The notes under the pieces: model-generated
The model's database searches: none
What the model was told of the DNA's origin: nothing
What the model saw: the letters and a program-made list of their open reading frames with translations, nothing else
Assembly (NCBI RefSeq): GCF_003386795.1
Contig: NZ_QTUC01000001.1
Coordinates: 3,162,001 to 3,226,000 of the forward strand
DNA from: Thermasporomyces composti
GTDB lineage: Bacteria; Actinomycetota; Actinomycetes; Propionibacteriales; Actinopolymorphaceae
Direction: 5' to 3'
Length of the DNA stretch: 64,000 bases
Part shown: in pieces, positions 39,192-47,327 of the stretch
Position numbering within the stretch: position 1 is the first letter of the stretch
Layout: the number at the start of each line of letters is the position of its first letter
Program-made: the position numbers and the translations under genes

Positions 39192-40280
39192 ATGAGCGTG
39201 TGGAAGGTGCTCGAGCGGCGGTCGGGTCTGCTCGGCGCGGCGGCGGGTGTGGTCGCCGCCGGTCTCGCCGCGGGCACGGCCGCAGGACTCGCCGTCGAGC
39301 GCTACCTCGTCGGGCGGCGTCGCATGGGCACGACCGAGCCGGACGAGGCGTTCGGCACGCTGCGCGGTGAGCCCGTCGTCGTGAAGACCCGGGACGGCCT
39401 CGAGTTGTACGCGGAGGTGGACGAGCCTCGTCGATCGTCCTCCCGCCTCACCGTCGTCTTCAGCCACGGGTACGCCCTCAACCTCGACTGTTGGCACTTC
39501 CAACGCGCCGCGCTCGTCGACGAGGCTCGGCTCGTCTTCTACGACCAGCGCTCGCACGGCCGGTCGGGCCGCTCGCCACGTGAGTTGTGCAACGTCGACC
39601 AGCTCGGCCTCGACCTCGGACAGGTCCTCGACCAGGTCGTGCCGGACGGGCCGGTGGTTCTCGTCGGTCATTCGATGGGCGGCATGGCGATCCTGGCCCT
39701 GGCGGACCAGCGTCCGGAGCTGTTCTCCGACCGGGTGGTCGGTGTGGCGCTGCTCGCGTCGAGCGCCGGGGACCTCGACCGGGTCACCCTCGGTGTGCCG
39801 GGACCCATGGGGCGGCTGGTCCACAAGGTCACGCCGGCGGTGGTGGCCGCTCTCGCGCGCGCACCCGACCTGGTCGAGCACAGCCGCAGGGCCGGCAGCG
39901 ACATCGCCTACCTACTCACCAAGCGCTACTCGTTCGGCTCGAAGGTGCCAGCGGCCCGGGTGGAGTTCGTCGCCGAGATGCTGGCGGCGACCCCGATCGA
40001 GGTCGTGGCCGACTTCTTCCCCGGCTTCGCCGAGCACGACAAGTACGCGGCGCTGGAGGTCTTGCACGGCGTGGAGACGTTGATCATCGGTGGTCGGGAC
40101 GACCTCATCACGCCGGTGGAGCACAGCCGCCGGATGGCCGAGCTGCACCCCGCCGCCCAGTACATCGAGCTCTCCGAGGCGGGTCACATGTTCCTCATCG
40201 AGCACCCTGAGGTTGTCAACGCCGCCCTGCTGGATCTGCTGGACCGCGCGGGCCATGCCGCGGAGGCGATGACGTCGTGA
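39192..40280 (+). CDS. Alpha/beta hydrolase
   Basis: The substrate is unknown; homologues sit between alr and tsaE in many actinobacteria. It has 362 residues from ATG 39192 (MSVWKVLERRSGLLG). Residues 11-35 are hydrophobic and Ala/Gly-rich, likely an N-terminal membrane anchor. The fold shows the oxyanion segment FSHGYALN, the nucleophile elbow GHSMGG, the acid in GGRDDLITP and the catalytic His in EAGHMFLIEHP. The longer frame from 39132 is not supported. Its stop overlaps the tsaE-fusion GTG by 4 nt. Confidence 0.9.
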   Translation: MSVWKVLERRSGLLGAAAGVVAAGLAAGTAAGLAVERYLVGRRRMGTTEPDEAFGTLRGEPVVVKTRDGLELYAEVDEPRRSSSRLTVVFSHGYALNLDCWHFQRAALVDEARLVFYDQRSHGRSGRSPRELCNVDQLGLDLGQVLDQVVPDGPVVLVGHSMGGMAILALADQRPELFSDRVVGVALLASSAGDLDRVTLGVPGPMGRLVHKVTPAVVAALARAPDLVEHSRRAGSDIAYLLTKRYSFGSKVPAARVEFVAEMLAATPIEVVADFFPGFAEHDKYAALEVLHGVETLIIGGRDDLITPVEHSRRMAELHPAAQYIELSEAGHMFLIEHPEVVNAALLDLLDRAGHAAEAMTS

Positions 40281-41278
40281 TCGATCTGCACGTCGCCGAG
40301 GCCAAGCCAACAGACGCCGCCGACCTGGTGAGCGTCATCCACGCCGCGTTCGGCGCGCGTCCGCCGCTCGACCCGCCGGGGACGGCCCTGCAGGAGACGG
40401 CGGAGACGGTCGAGGCCGCGATCGCGACCGACGGGGGCCTGCTCGCTCAGGTCGACCAGGAGCCGGCCGGAGCGATCCTGTTCGCCGAGCGCACCGTCGA
40501 CGGCGCCCGCTGGTTGGAACTGCGTCGCGTGTCGGTCCACCCGAGGTTCCAGCACCGGGGCGTCGCCACCGCCATGGTGGGATGCGCGGAGGAGGTCGCA
40601 CAGGCACGAGGGATGGAGGGGGTTCGCCTCGTCGCGCGTGTCGAGCTGCCGTCGACGCTCGCGTTCTGGCGCCACCGCGGCTACGTGGAGGTGGGTCGGC
40701 GCGACCCCTACGTCGACCTGGCTAAGCGGCTGCCGGTCGAGATCGCGACCTCCTCGGCCGCGGAGACGAAGGCGGTGGGCGAGCGACTGGCGACGCTGCT
40801 GCGCGCCGGCGACCTGATCCTGCTGTCCGGAGAGCTGGGCTCTGGCAAGACCACCTTGACGCAAGGTATCGGAGCTGGCTTGCGCGTGCGTGGTGAGGTG
40901 ACCTCCCCGACGTTCGTCATCGCGCGTGTCCACCCCTCGATGGTGGGTGGCCCGCCGCTGCTGCACGTCGACGCCTATCGCCTGGGTGGGGTCGCCGAGC
41001 TGGACGACCTCGACCTCGACACCACGGTCGACGACGCGGTCACCGTGGTGGAGTGGGGAGAGGGAATCGCCGAAGGCCTCGCCGAGGACCGACTCGAGGT
41101 CGTGCTGACCCGCCCGATCGGTGCCCAGGCGACAGGCGGCGGCCAGACGACGACGGGGGACGGCACGACGTCGGACGAGGACGCCGATCGCCGGACGATC
41201 CGGGTCGTCCCGGTGGGCCGCCGGTGGATGAACGTGCCACTGCGCGGCGCCTTGACCACGGCCGACCTGCTCGGCTGA
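40277..41278 (+). CDS. tsaE: Fusion of a GNAT acetyltransferase and TsaE
   Basis: TsaE is the ATPase of the TsaB-TsaD-TsaE complex that places threonylcarbamoyl on A37 of tRNAs. Residues 1-150 are a GNAT domain (LRRVSVHPRFQHRGVATAMVG being the acetyl-CoA motif; FWRHRGYVEVG). Residues about 155-330 are TsaE, with Walker A GELGSGKT (185-192, K191), SPTFVIARVH, HVDAYRLGG and VEWGEG. Usual TsaE proteins have about 150-170 residues, so the acetyltransferase doubles the length. A Gly/Thr/Asp-rich insertion lies near 280-295. The GTG start overlaps the hydrolase stop (GTGA). Confidence 0.93.
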   Translation: MIDLHVAEAKPTDAADLVSVIHAAFGARPPLDPPGTALQETAETVEAAIATDGGLLAQVDQEPAGAILFAERTVDGARWLELRRVSVHPRFQHRGVATAMVGCAEEVAQARGMEGVRLVARVELPSTLAFWRHRGYVEVGRRDPYVDLAKRLPVEIATSSAAETKAVGERLATLLRAGDLILLSGELGSGKTTLTQGIGAGLRVRGEVTSPTFVIARVHPSMVGGPPLLHVDAYRLGGVAELDDLDLDTTVDDAVTVVEWGEGIAEGLAEDRLEVVLTRPIGAQATGGGQTTTGDGTTSDEDADRRTIRVVPVGRRWMNVPLRGALTTADLLG

Positions 41279-41332: not shown

Positions 41333-41974
41333 GTGCTCGTCCTCGCGTTCGACACCGCCACGCCTGCGGTCACGGTCGCTCTCCACGACGGTTCGTCCGT
41401 GCTCGCGTCCTCGACGGTCGTCGACGCGATGCGGCACGCCGAGCTCCTCGCGCCAGGGATCGCGCGCGTGCTGACCGAGGCGGGGGCCGACCGTCGCGAC
41501 CTCACCGAGATCGCGGTCGGCGTGGGACCAGGGCCCTTCACCGGTCTGCGGGTGGGACTGGCCACCGCTCGCGCGATGGGGTACGTCCTGGGCATTCCGG
41601 TCCACGGGGTCTGCACGCTGGACGTCCTGGCCGCCGCGGCCCAGGTGGAGTCCGGGCCGTTCGTCGTCGCGACCGACGCCCGCCGCAAGGAGGTCTACTG
41701 GGCGCGCTACACCGACCGCCACACCAGGATCGACGGTCCGAAGGTCGCGAAGCCGGCCGCGCTCGCCACGAGCGAACCAGTGGTCGGCCAGGGCGCGCGG
41801 CTGTATCCGGACGCTTTTCCGAACGCCGCTTCGCCGGAGCTGCCGTCCGCGGCGGACCTGGCCAGGCTGGTGGCCACGCGGGCGGTTCCGCTGCTCGAAC
41901 CGGTCCCGCTCTACCTGCGACGTCCCGACGCCGCTCAGCCGGGTCCGCCCAAGTCCGTGCTGAGCACCCGCTGA
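41333..41974 (+). CDS. tsaB: tRNA threonylcarbamoyladenosine biosynthesis protein TsaB
   Basis: TsaB is the non-catalytic partner that heterodimerises with TsaD for t6A synthesis. It has 213 residues from GTG 41333: MLVLAFDTATPAVTVAL, the helix with MRHAELLAPGI used in dimerisation, and GVGPGPFTGLRVGLATARAMG. Part of the C-terminal ASKHA lobe is reduced, as usual for TsaB. It lies between the tsaE fusion and rimI. Confidence 0.94.
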   Translation: MLVLAFDTATPAVTVALHDGSSVLASSTVVDAMRHAELLAPGIARVLTEAGADRRDLTEIAVGVGPGPFTGLRVGLATARAMGYVLGIPVHGVCTLDVLAAAAQVESGPFVVATDARRKEVYWARYTDRHTRIDGPKVAKPAALATSEPVVGQGARLYPDAFPNAASPELPSAADLARLVATRAVPLLEPVPLYLRRPDAAQPGPPKSVLSTR

Positions 41975-41997: not shown

Positions 41998-42468
41998 ATG
42001 GTCGTGCTCCGTCCGGCTCGGCTTGACGACCTGGCAGCTCTGCGGGCGCTGGAGACGGCGTGCTTCGGACGTGACGCGTGGAGTGAGTCGGCTCTGCGGG
42101 ACGAGCTGGCCGCTGTGCCCGGGACGCGCTTCGTCGTGGTCGCGGTCGATCGGGGCCAGGACGAGGAGGTCGTGGGCTACGCGTCGCTGTTCGCCGTGGC
42201 GGAGACCGCCGACGTGCAGCGGATCGCGGTTCGACCGGACTGGCGCCGCCGAGGCGTCGGCCGGCGTCTGTTGCGCGCGCTCCTCGACGAGGCGGATCTG
42301 CGTGGGTGTCGCGAGGCCCTGCTCGAGGTACGGGCGGACAACGCCGCCGCGATCGCGATGTACGAGCGAGCAGGCTTCGAAGCCATCGCGCGCCGGCCCG
42401 GCTACTACCGAGGGGAGGCTGACGCGCTCGTCCTCCGGCTGGCGCCGCTGCACGGTTCGTCGGGCTAG
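41998..42468 (+). CDS. rimI: Ribosomal-protein-alanine N-acetyltransferase RimI
   Basis: RimI acetylates protein N-termini, classically that of S18. It is a 156-residue GNAT protein with the acetyl-CoA loop IAVRPDWRRRGVGRRLL and the C-terminal EVRADNAAAIAMYERAGFEAIARRPGYY, which is specific to the RimI branch. ATG 41998 has GAGG 7 nt upstream. The tsaB-rimI-tsaD order is typical, but here the solute-binding protein gene follows instead of tsaD. Confidence 0.92.
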   Translation: MVVLRPARLDDLAALRALETACFGRDAWSESALRDELAAVPGTRFVVVAVDRGQDEEVVGYASLFAVAETADVQRIAVRPDWRRRGVGRRLLRALLDEADLRGCREALLEVRADNAAAIAMYERAGFEAIARRPGYYRGEADALVLRLAPLHGSSG

Positions 42469-42557
42469 CGGAGAGTAGCTGGTCCACCGCCGCGGTGGGT
42501 GGCGCTCGGGTGGGGCGTCTGGGTCCGTGCCGATGCCGGACGATCGTCGGCCACATC

Positions 42558-42587
42558 TTGACACGCTCGCTCCGGAATCCCTAGTTT
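42558..42587 (+). promoter_or_regulatory. Candidate promoter of the solute-binding lipoprotein gene
   Basis: A perfect TTGACA -35 (42558-42563) is followed after 18 bp by TAGTTT (42582-42587). The region is noticeably more AT-rich than its surroundings. The leader to ATG 42726 would be about 130 nt and contains an inverted repeat. Confidence 0.55.
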
Positions 42588-42608
42588 CGTCCGGAAATCG
42601 ATTGCTGG

Positions 42609-42632
42609 CGAGGTTTGTTGCGTTCAACCTCG
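42609..42632. promoter_or_regulatory. Inverted repeat downstream of the lipoprotein gene promoter
   Basis: CGAGGTT (42609-42615) and AACCTCG (42626-42632) form a perfect 7-bp inverted repeat around a 10-nt AT-rich centre. It lies about 20 bp after the -10 element, where a repressor operator could sit. A leader hairpin is the alternative. Confidence 0.4.
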
Positions 42633-42725
42633 TCCAAGACCGACCCGCCTCAGCCACGAGGCGACGGGGCACGAACCCCGCCCTACCCGTGCGCGGAGCG
42701 GCACTCGTCCGAACGGAAGAGGACC

Positions 42726-44873
42726 ATGGACACTCAGAACGGGCTCACTCGGCGGGCGCTCCTCCACCTTTCCGCCATGGCAGCGGCCAGCGTGACTCTG
42801 GCAGCGTGCTCGGCCGGATCCAGCGGCACCAGCAACTCCAGCCGAGGGGGCGGAGACGACACCAGCTCGGCCTCGTCGAAGCTCAAGGGTTCCAAGACCG
42901 AGCCGCTCCCTGTGCCCAAGGAGTTCAAGGAAGCGCCGGAGCTCGCCAAGCTGGTGAAGGAAGGCAAGCTCCCGCCGGTCCACGAGCGTCTGCCGGAGAA
43001 CCCCTACGTCGTACCTCACAACTGGCTGACGCCCGGCAAGTACGGCGGCTCCATCATGACCATCACCGGTGCCAGCAACTCCACGACGCACGCGGAGTTC
43101 ATGTACGGGCACTCCCTGCTGCGCTGGCTGAACGACGGTCAGACCATCGGCCCTGGCCTGGTGGAGAGCTGGGAGTCCAACGAGGACGCCACGGAGTGGG
43201 TCCTCCACTTCCGCAAAGGGCTGAAGTGGTCCGACGGGCACCCGTGGTCCACCGAGGACATCTTGTTCTGGTGGGAGGACATGGTCCTCAACGAGGAACA
43301 CAGCGAGATGCCCCCGGACGAGGCCCGCTCGGGCAAGGGCACGCTCATGACGATGAAGGCCATCGACGAGGTGACCTTGTCGTTGAGCTTCGATGCGCCG
43401 GCGCCGCTCACCGCCGACCGGCTCGCCATGTGGGTCAAGCGGGGCAACGGCCCGTCGTGGATGGAGCCCAAGCACTACCTCAAGCAGTTCCACCCCAAGT
43501 ACAACCCGAACGTGCCCAAGGACTGGGCCACCGACAAGGGGGAGTTCGACCACAAGCGGGCCTGGATCCGCAACCCCGAGTGCCCTGTGATGACGGGGTG
43601 GAAGTGCAAGTCCTACAACGAGGGTCGGCGCGTCGTCTTCGAGCGCAACCCCTACTACTGGTGTGTGTCGCCTGACGGCGCCCAGCTGCCGTACATCGAC
43701 ACGATCTCGTTCAACGTCGTCGAAAACCCCGAGGTGCAGAGGCTGCACGCCCTCGAAGGCAAGATCAACTTCCTCTACGCGGGCTTCACCACGATCTTCC
43801 TCCAGGACGTCTCCGCTCTGAAGCGAGCGGAGCAGAAGACCAAGCTGCGGGTGTTCCTGTGGGACGCCGGCGACGGCAGCGGCTCGTTGGTGTTCTTCAA
43901 CCAGGACTACCACGAGCCGAAGATGCGGGAGCTCATCCGTAACCCGAAGTTCCGCCAGGCGCTCTCCCACGCGTACAACCGGGCCGAGGTCCAGAAGGCC
44001 GTCTACTACAACACCGGCGAGCTCACCACCGGCACGATGAGCCCCAAGGCCATCGAGTTCCACGTCAACGACGAGGGCAAGCGCATGTACCAGGCCTGGC
44101 GCGACAGCTACCTCAAGTACGACCCGGAGCTCGCCAAGAAGATGCTCGACGAGATCGGGGTCGTCGACACCGACGGCGACGGATGGCGGGAGATGCCGGA
44201 CGGCAGCAAGCTCAAGGTCCGCCTGGACTACCACGCCGACTCCGCGCAGGAGCACGTCTCCAAGAACGAGCTGCTCGCGCGAGACTGGCGGGCGATCGGG
44301 ATCGACACCCAGCTGAACCCGGTGCCACCGGACGGCTACGGCGACCAGTGGCGGTTCGGGAAGCTCATGACGAACACCAACTGGGAGACCGGCGACGGGC
44401 CGAACTGCCTGGTCTACCCCCAGTGGCTCGTCCCGATCGAGTCCTCCCGCTGGGCTCCTCTCCAGGGCGAGTTCTACAACGTCCGTGGGACGCCCGAGGA
44501 GAAGAAGGAGCTCGACGTCGACCCTTACAAGCGGACTCCGCCGCGGATGGAGCCCGAGCCCGGTGGGCCGATCGAGAAGCTGTGGGAGCTGTACGACCAG
44601 AGCAAGGTCGAGCCCGACGAGATGAAGCGGCACCGGCTCGTGTGGGAGATGATCAAGGTCCACATCGAGTACGGTCCGTACCTTCTCGGCGTCTGCGCCA
44701 ACACTCCCTACATCGTCTTGGTCCACGAGGACATGCGAAACGTCCCGACCCGGGAGAACCTCGCGCTCGGCGGGTTCGCCGCTCCGTGGATCCACCCCAC
44801 GCCGGCGGTGTACGACCCGGAGACGTGGTACTGGGCCAACCCCGAAGAGCACGGCGATCCTGGGCTCACCTAG
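42726..44873 (+). CDS. ABC transporter solute-binding lipoprotein, family 5
   Basis: Family 5 binding proteins deliver peptides, nickel or, in some thermophiles, oligosaccharides to an ABC importer; the ligand here is unknown. The 715-residue precursor has a twin-arginine-like TRRALL followed by a hydrophobic stretch and the lipobox LAAC with C28 as the lipidated residue. A Ser/Gly-rich linker precedes the domain with RKGLKWSDGHPWSTEDILFWW, KMREL.RNPKFRQALSHAYNR and the C-terminal half. It is about 150 residues longer than a typical OppA. No permease or ATPase genes are adjacent. ATG 42726 follows GGAAGAGGA. It interrupts rimI-tsaD. Confidence 0.9.
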   Translation: MDTQNGLTRRALLHLSAMAAASVTLAACSAGSSGTSNSSRGGGDDTSSASSKLKGSKTEPLPVPKEFKEAPELAKLVKEGKLPPVHERLPENPYVVPHNWLTPGKYGGSIMTITGASNSTTHAEFMYGHSLLRWLNDGQTIGPGLVESWESNEDATEWVLHFRKGLKWSDGHPWSTEDILFWWEDMVLNEEHSEMPPDEARSGKGTLMTMKAIDEVTLSLSFDAPAPLTADRLAMWVKRGNGPSWMEPKHYLKQFHPKYNPNVPKDWATDKGEFDHKRAWIRNPECPVMTGWKCKSYNEGRRVVFERNPYYWCVSPDGAQLPYIDTISFNVVENPEVQRLHALEGKINFLYAGFTTIFLQDVSALKRAEQKTKLRVFLWDAGDGSGSLVFFNQDYHEPKMRELIRNPKFRQALSHAYNRAEVQKAVYYNTGELTTGTMSPKAIEFHVNDEGKRMYQAWRDSYLKYDPELAKKMLDEIGVVDTDGDGWREMPDGSKLKVRLDYHADSAQEHVSKNELLARDWRAIGIDTQLNPVPPDGYGDQWRFGKLMTNTNWETGDGPNCLVYPQWLVPIESSRWAPLQGEFYNVRGTPEEKKELDVDPYKRTPPRMEPEPGGPIEKLWELYDQSKVEPDEMKRHRLVWEMIKVHIEYGPYLLGVCANTPYIVLVHEDMRNVPTRENLALGGFAAPWIHPTPAVYDPETWYWANPEEHGDPGLT

Positions 44874-44961
44874 GGCAGCCTCGCCTCGACCCGCAGGGAG
44901 GCCAGGCCAGGAGCCCAGTGAGGAGACCACTCAGTCCACGAAGGCGAGCGCGGCCTGGAGA

Positions 44962-44983
44962 GTGGGCCCAAGGTTGGGCCCAC
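44962..44983. terminator. Hairpin after the solute-binding protein gene
   Basis: A perfect 9-bp inverted repeat (44962-44970 with 44975-44983) with a 4-nt loop lies 89 nt after the lipoprotein stop. There is no T-tract. It is the only strong dyad in the 249-bp gap before tsaD, so terminator and operator are both possible. Confidence 0.45.
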
Positions 44984-45122
44984 GGGTGGGTACGGTGTCG
45001 GCGCCCCTCCTGTGCGCGGTCGTGGCGGTGCCGAGGGTCGGTTCGGCGCCCCCTACCCTGAGAGGTGTGCGGGCGCCGAACCGCCCGCGCGCCGACGTCC
45101 ACCCACGGAGTAGGCCCCATCC

Positions 45123-46169
45123 ATGACCGACGAGCCCCTGGTCCTTGGTATCGAGACCTCCTGCGACGAGACCGGCGTCGGCATCGTGCGCGGACAGACG
45201 CTGCTGGCCAACGCCGTGGCGTCGAGCCTGGAGGAGCACGCGCGGTTCGGGGGTGTCGTCCCGGAGGTCGCGAGTCGTGCTCATCTGGAGGCGTTCATCC
45301 CCTCTCTGGAGCGGGCCGCTCGAGACGCGGGCGTCCGGCTCTCCGACATCGACGCGGTGGCGGTGACGAGTGGGCCCGGGCTCGCTGGCGCGCTCCTGGT
45401 GGGGGTCGCGGCGGCGAAGGCCCTTGCCCTGGCGCTGGACCGTCCCCTGTACGGCGTGAACCACCTGGCCGCGCACGTCGCGGTTGACACCCTCGAGCAC
45501 GGTCCGCTGCCGCAGCCGTGCGTGTCCTTGCTGGTGTCGGGTGGGCACTCCTCGATCCTGTTGGTCGAGGACGTCACGCAGAACGTCCAGCCGCTGGGCT
45601 CGACGATCGACGACGCGGCGGGTGAGGCGTTCGACAAGGTGGCCCGGCTGCTCGGGCTGCCGTTCCCGGGCGGTCCCTTCATCGATCGCGAGGCGAAGGC
45701 CGGCGACCCGGCCTACGTGACGTTCCCGCGCGGCCTCACCAGTCCCCGCGACCTCGAGCGGCACCGCTTCGACTTCTCCTTCTCCGGGCTGAAGACCGCC
45801 GTGGCGCGGTGGGTGGAGACGCGGCAGCGCGCCGGGGAGTCGGTGCCCGTCGCCGACGTGGCGGCGTCGTTCCAGGAAGCCGTGTGCGACGTGCTCACCC
45901 GCAAGGCGGTTGACGCCTGTCGGACCCACGGGGTGGACGACCTGCTCATCGGTGGCGGCGTGGCCGCCAACTCGCGCTTGCGGGCGATGGCGGAGGAGCG
46001 GTGTGCGGCGGCGGGCATCCGGCTGCGGGTGCCGCGGCCGGGGCTGTGCACCGACAACGGCGCGATGGTGGCCGCTCTCGGTGCGCAGCTGGTGGCGCGC
46101 GGGCTCGCTCCCAGCCGGCTCGACGTGCCAGCTGATTCCGCGCTTCCGGTGACGACGGTCGCGGTCTGA
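45123..46169 (+). CDS. tsaD: tRNA N6-adenosine threonylcarbamoyltransferase TsaD
   Basis: TsaD transfers the threonylcarbamoyl group to A37 of ANN-decoding tRNAs. The 348-residue ASKHA protein starts [16 protein letters not shown] and has the metal-binding H114 and H118 in [19 protein letters not shown], and the C-terminal [11 protein letters not shown] and [13 protein letters not shown]. It belongs with tsaE and tsaB about 3-5 kb upstream but is separated from them by the lipoprotein gene, so it needs its own promoter; a TACCCT at 45054-45059 is a weak -10 candidate. Confidence 0.97.
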
Positions 46170-46328: not shown

Positions 46329-47327
46329 ATGGCGACGAACGCCTCCGGAGGACGGAACTCCTTCGCCGGCTGGGCGACCGCTCGACCGTCCACCTCGAGG
46401 CCGCGGCGAGGCATGGTGTGGGTGCCGGGCGGAACGTTCGCCATGGGGTCGGACGACTTCTACCCCGAGGAACGCCCGGTGCGCGAGGTCACCGTCGACG
46501 GGTTCTGGATGGACGTCCACCCGGTGACGGTGGCGGCGTTCCGCCGTTTCGTCCGAGCGACGGGCTACGTGACGGTGGCCGAGCGGGCGTTCGGCCCCGG
46601 CACCGCGCTCGACCCGGATCCCGCCATGCGACAGTCGGGCTCCCTGGTCTTCCGGCAGCCCGCCCACCCGGTGGATCTGTGTGATCCGCGCGGTTGGTGG
46701 GCCCGGGTGCCTGGAGCGTCCTGGCGTCATCCCGAGGGGCCGGACAGCTCGGTGCACGGTCGGGAGCGGCATCCCGTGACCCACGTGGCGTACGAGGACG
46801 CGGTGGCGTACGCGACCTGGGTGGGTGGTCGACTGCCGACGGAGGCCGAGTGGGAGTTCGCGGCGCGTGGTGGTCTGGACGGCGCGGTGTACCCGTGGGG
46901 CGATGACCCGACGCCGGGCGGCCGGCTCATGGCCAACATCTGGCAGGGGGAGTTCCCGTGGCGTCGTGCAGCGTACGGTTTCCCCGGCACGTCGCCGGTC
47001 GGCTCGTTCCCAGCCAACGGATACGGCCTGCTCGACATGGTGGGCAACGTCTGGGAGTGGACGAGCGACCTTTTCCTGCCCCGACCCGGCGACCGCTTCG
47101 CCAAGGCGCGGTGCATTCCTGACCCGCGGTCGCTGGGCGGCCTCGCCGGACGCTGGCGCCCCCGTGAACCGGACCAGGCTCTCCGGGTCATCAAGGGTGG
47201 TTCCTTCCTGTGCGCACCCAACTACTGTCTGCGCTATCGGCCGGCGGCGCGACAGGGAGTAGCCGCCGACGTGACGGCGTGCAACCTCGGCTTTCGGGTG
47301 GTCGTCGACGGGTCGGCCGCGTCGTGA
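46329..47327 (+). CDS. Formylglycine-generating enzyme (sulfatase-activating, SUMF1 type)
   Basis: FGE oxidises a cysteine in sulfatase CxPxR motifs to formylglycine, using oxygen and copper. The 332-residue protein opens with MVWVPGGTFAMGSDDFYPEE and has the family's LPTEAEWEFAARGG, YPWGD, NGYGLLDMVGNVWEW and RVIKGGSFLC. The two copper-binding active-site cysteines are present as C295 and C300 (CAPNYC), which many SUMF1-domain relatives lack, so activity as a true FGE is likely. No signal peptide is seen. No sulfatase gene lies in this window. A strong terminator follows. Confidence 0.93.
   Translation: MATNASGGRNSFAGWATARPSTSRPRRGMVWVPGGTFAMGSDDFYPEERPVREVTVDGFWMDVHPVTVAAFRRFVRATGYVTVAERAFGPGTALDPDPAMRQSGSLVFRQPAHPVDLCDPRGWWARVPGASWRHPEGPDSSVHGRERHPVTHVAYEDAVAYATWVGGRLPTEAEWEFAARGGLDGAVYPWGDDPTPGGRLMANIWQGEFPWRRAAYGFPGTSPVGSFPANGYGLLDMVGNVWEWTSDLFLPRPGDRFAKARCIPDPRSLGGLAGRWRPREPDQALRVIKGGSFLCAPNYCLRYRPAARQGVAADVTACNLGFRVVVDGSAAS

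Follow-up and report, generated by a model that had tools for sequence, protein, structure and literature searches.

An orphan family 5 solute-binding lipoprotein gene beside tsaD: a candidate D-arabinan receptor of Actinopolymorphaceae

What does a solute-binding lipoprotein gene do in the t6A gene cluster, and which transporter does its product serve? The question arises from a 64,000-nt stretch of the Thermasporomyces composti genome (the window, hereafter), in which a gene for a family 5 solute-binding lipoprotein, termed here the tsaD-locus SBP, separates rimI from tsaD (Table 1). The initial annotation read it as an orphan: a lone, regulated part of an uptake system that looked inserted into the cluster and must rely on a transporter encoded elsewhere. 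The gene and its position were confirmed, and the match to PF00496 (E 7.8e-59, 200.1 bits) is above the gathering score of 32.4. As that annotation held, permease and ATPase genes are missing from its surroundings: the nearest 8 kb contain no start of a BPD_transp_1 match, and the 19-kb locus around it (L102) contains no match to the permeases and ATPases of the operon described below.

Table 1. Features of the tsaD locus, in window positions
Feature	Position	Strand	Remark
tsaB	41333..41974	+	PF00814, E 2.5e-29
rimI (GNAT acetyltransferase)	41998..42468	+	PF00583, E 2.1e-22
Sigma-70-like promoter TTGACA-N18-TAGTTT	42558..42587	+	TTGACA at 42558, TAGTTT at 42582
LacI-like putative operator GAAATCGATTGC	42594..42605	+	6 bases lie between it and the -10 box
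7-bp inverted repeat CGAGGTT-N10-AACCTCG	42609..42632	.	not conserved
Orphan family 5 solute-binding lipoprotein (tsaD-locus SBP)	42726..44873	+	715 aa; PF00496
tsaD	45123..46169	+	PF00814, E 3.5e-91
Sulfatase-modifying-factor-type (FGE-type) gene after tsaD	46329..47327	+	PF03781

The locus was compared in eight genomes of the family, namely that of the window (G000, 4.37 Mb), one of genus g2 (G001) and six of genus g3. All six g3 genomes share the order tsaB-rimI-SBP-tsaD with the window, and the arrangement rimI-SBP-tsaD holds for seven of the eight. G001 differs: tsaB and rimI lie inverted there, its orthologue (74% identity) is located directly downstream of tsaD, and a paralogue of the tsaD-locus SBP (57%) is found on the far side of rimI. 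None of 20 genomes from other families of the order carries the tsaD-locus SBP within 1.5 kb of tsaD; the outcome that would have refuted the initial annotation, presence at this place throughout the order, did not arise, and we rejected ancestry at the level of the order on this ground. Weak matches occurred somewhere in ten of them (best, 8.0e-8). As to the contiguity assumed in the initial annotation, the distance from rimI to the tsaD gene that follows it is 8-165 bp in 15 of these 20 genomes, and no rimI match was obtained within 1.5 kb of tsaD in the other five. Because the locus is occupied in 8/8 family genomes and in 0/20 genomes of other families, the insertion beside tsaD most likely predates the diversification of the family and postdates its split from the other families compared. 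The insertion of one regulated uptake gene into the t6A cluster is supported, but it is neither recent nor unique, given the presence of the gene in all eight genomes, the purifying selection on it and the 92 paralogues described below. Among 396 sampled genomes of the phylum, a match at E <=1e-90 was found solely in the window's own genome, and a scan of named genomes recovered relatives in Microlunatus, Nonomuraea, Chloroflexota and a record titled Clostridiales. The FGE-type gene 3' of tsaD is also found in the six g3 genomes (59-62%), with no match in the G001 locus. In the same cluster, a single 333-residue frame (40277-41278, + strand) joins tsaE to a GNAT domain at its N-terminus, and the seven relatives retain full-length matches to this fusion (67-73% over 323-327 residues).

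The protein begins with a twin-arginine-like, lipoprotein-type sequence as judged by eye (TRRALL...LAAC, residues 8-28, Cys 28). None of the eight NCBIfam equivalog families listed (Opp4A, NikA, DppA and others) reached its cut-off, the best score being 103.3 bits against 650 required. Its AF2 model, generated from a 21-sequence alignment (pLDDT 83.7), has the family 5 receptor fold and resembles 5ipw and SPH1118 with Z of 37-39 over 592-601 residues; in the ranking of solved structures, 5ipw (Z 38.7) and SPH1118 (Z 37) were followed by MelB (Z 31), and all others were at 24.2 or below. The closest solved receptors with sugar ligands are SPH1118 (pectin) and then MelB (raffinose), and the modelled fold fits an oligosaccharide ligand. 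SPH1118, the pectin-binding protein of Sphingomonas sp. A1 (~610 residues), is nevertheless only ~26% identical to the tsaD-locus SBP and takes another sugar.

We considered whether the gene is a decaying or selfish leftover without function, as it sits in a housekeeping cluster without partner genes. This is highly improbable: all eight genomes retain the gene (74-80% identity between the orthologues of the relatives and that of the window), the operator described below is kept, and dN/dS was 0.13-0.23 in five close pairs, indicating purifying selection (0.01-0.07 for tsaD). Comparison of codon usage with the neighbours disclosed no foreign signature. Total G+C of the gene is 65.3%, lower than the 70.6-73.4% of alr, abH, tsaE, tsaB, rimI, tsaD and the FGE-type gene or the 69.2% of dctA. 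Its GC3 of 93.3%, in contrast, falls within the range of the neighbours (84.1-90.4% for the former seven genes and 95.1% for dctA); the reduced G+C seems to reflect protein composition rather than foreign codon usage.

The promoter noted in the initial annotation is present with its 18-bp spacer in AT-richer DNA (55% G+C at 42550-42640 versus 70% for the window), and an alignment of eight orthologue promoters demonstrated that TTGAC at -35 and a -10-like region are kept. The 7-bp inverted repeat downstream is present as well, as the sole exact copy in the window, but both of its halves are missing from the other seven orthologue promoters. With its presence in one of eight promoters, we rejected the repeat as the operator, and it is probably incidental. 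Regulation of the gene is supported through a different element, the palindrome at 42594-42605. After the -10 box, GAAATCGATT(G/C)C is found in all eight promoters, and GAAATCGATTGC was the sole 12-mer with zero mismatches in all orthologues among the matches listed for the stretch searched. GAAATCGATTSC occurs once in the 4.37-Mb genome of the window, at the promoter of the tsaD-locus SBP, and its reversed control was absent from the eight genomes. A palindrome with a central CG, as in GAAATCGATTGC, is typical of LacI-family operators.

A relaxed form of the palindrome, GNAATCGATTNC, whose limits were set after the motif had been seen, has 32 sites in the eight genomes (reversed control, none). 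According to gene calls and Pfam, 25 of these belong to the tsaD-locus SBP (nine), DUF4185 (six), SBP_bac_1 (five), DUF2961 (two), GH116 (two) and LacI (one) genes. The remaining seven fall outside this set: in G001, one is located 5' of another LacI gene and one 5' of the gene for a ricin-lectin protein; one lies near a glyoxalase gene (G006), one inside a P450 frame (G003) and one inside a called frame (G007), and two have no clear neighbour. Genes outside the window were called by a simple G+C-based script with uncertain starts; at L211, L216, L237, L262, L263 and L271, the site falls inside the called frame but ~18-48 bases before the next in-frame ATG.

All three sites in the window's genome are placed at genes of interest, namely those for the tsaD-locus SBP, the sole strong DUF4185 (GH183) match and one of the two DUF2961 (GH172) matches. 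The DUF4185 site precedes a gene for a 529-residue protein (two further DUF4185 matches in this genome are weak), and the DUF2961 site lies 26 bases 5' of the first ATG of a gene encoding 979 residues as called. Across the family, an operator-like palindrome was found at nine of ten strong DUF4185 genes (six with the exact core, three with one change) and at none of 11 weak ones. Among 18 DUF2961 genes, the exact core occurs at two long ones only and a one-change version at two others; the 16 genes other than the long pair match the family better, yet have no exact site. The operator-bearing DUF4185 and long DUF2961 enzymes look secreted by eye. The two GH116 sites are both in G001, each between divergent genes.

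DUF4185 corresponds to GH183 endo-D-arabinanases, DUF2961 to GH172 with exo-alpha-D-arabinofuranosidases among its members, and one GH116 subfamily to exo-beta-D-arabinofuranosidases, as described in PMC10509167 and PMC10115798. A D-arabinan locus described for Microbacterium arabinogalactanolyticum combines GH183, GH172 and GH116 enzymes with an ABC importer and is induced by D-arabinose (PMC10509167). Since GH183, GH172 and GH116 together make up this published D-arabinan-degrading set, the operator, shared by the tsaD-locus SBP and genes for GH183 and GH172 enzymes, is most likely the signature of a D-arabinan regulon to which the orphan receptor belongs. The published locus forms one cluster with an SBP_bac_8 receptor and intracellular exo-enzymes, which are described as having no signal sequence (PMC10509167), whereas the putative regulon found here is dispersed, its orphan receptor belongs to family 5, and its DUF2961 enzyme is long and looks secreted. 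This difference speaks against the D-arabinan reading, as the published GH172 and GH116 enzymes act inside the cell; GH172 is, moreover, described as including fructofuranosidases (PMC10509167). The seven sites with other neighbours, the 16 DUF2961 genes that lack an exact site and the absence of the core from most other orphan groups count against this reading as well. Control by a LacI-family repressor is weakened in turn by the fact that the link depends on one self-site, in G001; no self-site was found at the orthologous LacI genes of the other seven genomes.

The five SBP_bac_1 sites (four Pfam-confirmed) bear on what the tsaD-locus SBP binds. The operator is located 5' of a dedicated SBP_bac_1-type importer in G002, G003 and G006; Pfam confirmed two permeases of this importer in G003 and one in G002, whereas those in G006 are known from gene calls only. 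The cluster contains GH116 and LacI genes in G003, and GH116 in G004. The fifth gene, in G004 (L244), has an interrupted frame, which is open in G002, G003 and G006. In G005, an SBP_bac_1 lipoprotein gene with the GAAATCGATTGC operator (L202:1606-2919) lies beside an era-like gene as judged by eye, and represents another sugar receptor among housekeeping genes. Because the operator precedes this type of importer in three genomes and an SBP_bac_1 gene in G005, D-arabinan cargo may enter through the SBP_bac_1 system, and the tsaD-locus SBP may bind another compound of the regulon.

A related alternative is that the tsaD-locus SBP is an orphan receptor of a shared importer for some other oligosaccharide, with membership of the D-arabinan regulon being a side link. 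The separate operator-led importer in three genomes, with an SBP_bac_1 gene in two more, is consistent with this alternative, as are a fold near oligosaccharide receptors in general and the division of the paralogues into ~15 groups without a common operator, whose specificities probably differ. Nevertheless, no second palindrome-bearing importer was seen in the window's genome or G007, and both further sites in the former adjoin genes for D-arabinan-type enzymes. We regard this alternative as rather unlikely, albeit worth serious consideration.

The question of the transporter was approached through the paralogues. At E <=1e-150, the family genomes contain 5, 8, 15, 14, 15, 13, 15 and 7 paralogues, 92 in total (one partial), in 88 fetched loci; 91 gene models were above the score limit, and in the L127 pair the caller broke up the second gene. 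An operon of the order SBP-permease-permease-ATPase-ATPase was found in eight of the 88 loci, exactly one per genome, so that each genome has one operon member and 4-14 other paralogues, and 92 receptor genes face eight operons. No match to the operon permeases was obtained in 79 of the 88 loci, and L176 has a weak pair; the flanks covered were ~7 kb, or less where a contig ended nearby (L134, L158), and this test would miss permeases of wholly different types. A tree of the paralogues, made by a quick method that left some forks open, was divided by hand into ~15 groups. The core AANCGNTT is missing from most paralogues outside the group of the tsaD-locus SBP, and we rejected a common operator for all orphan paralogues on this ground. 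When conserved palindromes were sought by k-mers, weaker candidates emerged in several groups, E167 and G101 among them.

Outside the family, 22 of 23 loci were inspected, L179 (Actinopolymorpha pittospori) being left out. Both permeases are encoded in 18 of the 22, together with both ATPases in 13 and as permeases only in five. The last ATPase is cut by the contig end in L183 and L199, L186 ends after the permeases, and L197 has a different gene order; the four loci without permeases are L185, L190 and the fragments L200 and L201. The most parsimonious history is that of a single operon from which only the receptor gene was duplicated, repeatedly, within the family. Because each genome has one operon and its other receptors lack permeases, and because relatives outside the family mostly have both, a single transporter is probably shared by several receptors encoded at separate places; the claim of dependence on a transporter encoded elsewhere is supported in this respect.

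In the window's genome, the operon (SBP-permA-permB-atpA-atpB, from G000:C1:1311137; L098) encodes the closest paralogue of the tsaD-locus SBP in that genome (66% identity). Pseudomonas aeruginosa offers a precedent, in which one Dpp-type permease/ATPase set, DppBCDF, works with several homologous receptors of differing specificity, DppA1-A5 (PMC4206461). Since several receptors are known to share a permease in that case, the L098 importer is most likely the partner of the tsaD-locus SBP. DppA1-A5 are described as taking peptides, not glycans (PMC4206461), whereas the importer considered here would be shared by its operon receptor and, in each genome, by 4-14 further receptors from separate loci.

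The orphan could instead rely on a different importer of the genome, which has 91 BPD_transp_1 matches, many of them adjoining family 5 receptors. We consider this improbable, as all eight genomes have one operon of exactly this SBP subfamily and most relatives outside the family are encoded with the operon. It is almost equally improbable, though marginally less so, that the receptor is a sensor, which reports a surface ligand to a signalling protein and serves no importer at all. Orphan status would agree with such a role, and there are parallels in the second, signalling cellobiose receptor described in Ruminiclostridium (PMC10384115) and in SPH1118, among the nearest folds, which is described as acting in both chemotaxis and assimilation (PMC9314435). 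The neighbours are, however, tsaB, rimI, tsaD and the FGE-type gene rather than sensor kinases, and permeases accompany the receptor gene in 18 of the 22 relatives outside the family.

We consider it about an even chance that the tsaD-locus SBP is a receptor for D-arabinan oligosaccharides that uses the shared importer. If this is the case, a LacI-family repressor would occupy GAAATCGATTGC, over the expected transcription start, and release it when breakdown products of D-arabinan are present; the same operator would control the DUF4185 (GH183) and the long DUF2961 (GH172) enzymes. The surface lipoprotein would then bind oligosaccharides set free from D-arabinan, the arabinan that occurs in arabinogalactan and lipoarabinomannan of the mycobacterial type, and the loaded receptor would dock on the Opp/Dpp-type importer of its closest paralogue, which other orphan paralogues would use as well. 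It is attractive to speculate, with somewhat less confidence, that Actinopolymorphaceae have a hub-and-plug importer, in which one set serves 4-14 further receptors with their own loci, control and glycans, often among housekeeping genes, and the tsaD-locus plug is that for D-arabinan of the mycobacterial cell wall.

An expansion of receptors in particular lineages has been described for TTT transporters, for instance in Rhodoplanes sp. Z2-YC6860 with 434 receptor genes (PMC5994714). Unlike the importer discussed here, TTT transporters are not ABC systems. To our knowledge, no glycan regulon is known for those expanded receptor sets, and we noticed no report on the receptor set of Actinopolymorphaceae in the open-access literature searched. 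If the above reading is correct, the diet of an importer was widened by duplicating the receptor alone, with each copy wired to its own regulon, and the tsaD-locus SBP would be the first family 5 receptor for mycobacterial cell-wall D-arabinan. The family would then provide a lineage in which such receptor-only widening can be tested, and the receptor, operator and enzymes would be candidates for a system that feeds on cell walls of the mycobacterial type, of use in arabinogalactan analysis and in ecological work on bacteria that consume or recycle Mycobacteriales.

The three other orphans of this paralogue set in the window's genome are located near a glycyl-tRNA synthetase gene (L099), directly 5' of the gene for a PcrA/UvrD helicase (L100) and close to leuA, with a lacI gene alongside (L101). 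Paralogue groups F099 (L099) and F2 (L123) are both found near a glycyl-tRNA synthetase gene (identified by Pfam in L099 and by eye in L123), which suggests local duplication of an orphan receptor. In the Chloroflexi bacterium isolate 3, a receptor of the same subfamily (L185:5327-7588, 50%), in a locus without permeases, adjoins a gene for an 876-residue protein that is alpha-mannosidase-like by eye. The window's genome as a whole has 36 family 5 receptor matches, corresponding to ~34 genes; for 13 of the 34, no BPD_transp_1 match begins in the surrounding 8 kb, and for one further gene the sole match is at a distance of 7.3 kb. Several orphans also occur in a second set of receptors, which are more distantly related (31-37% identical to the tsaD-locus SBP).
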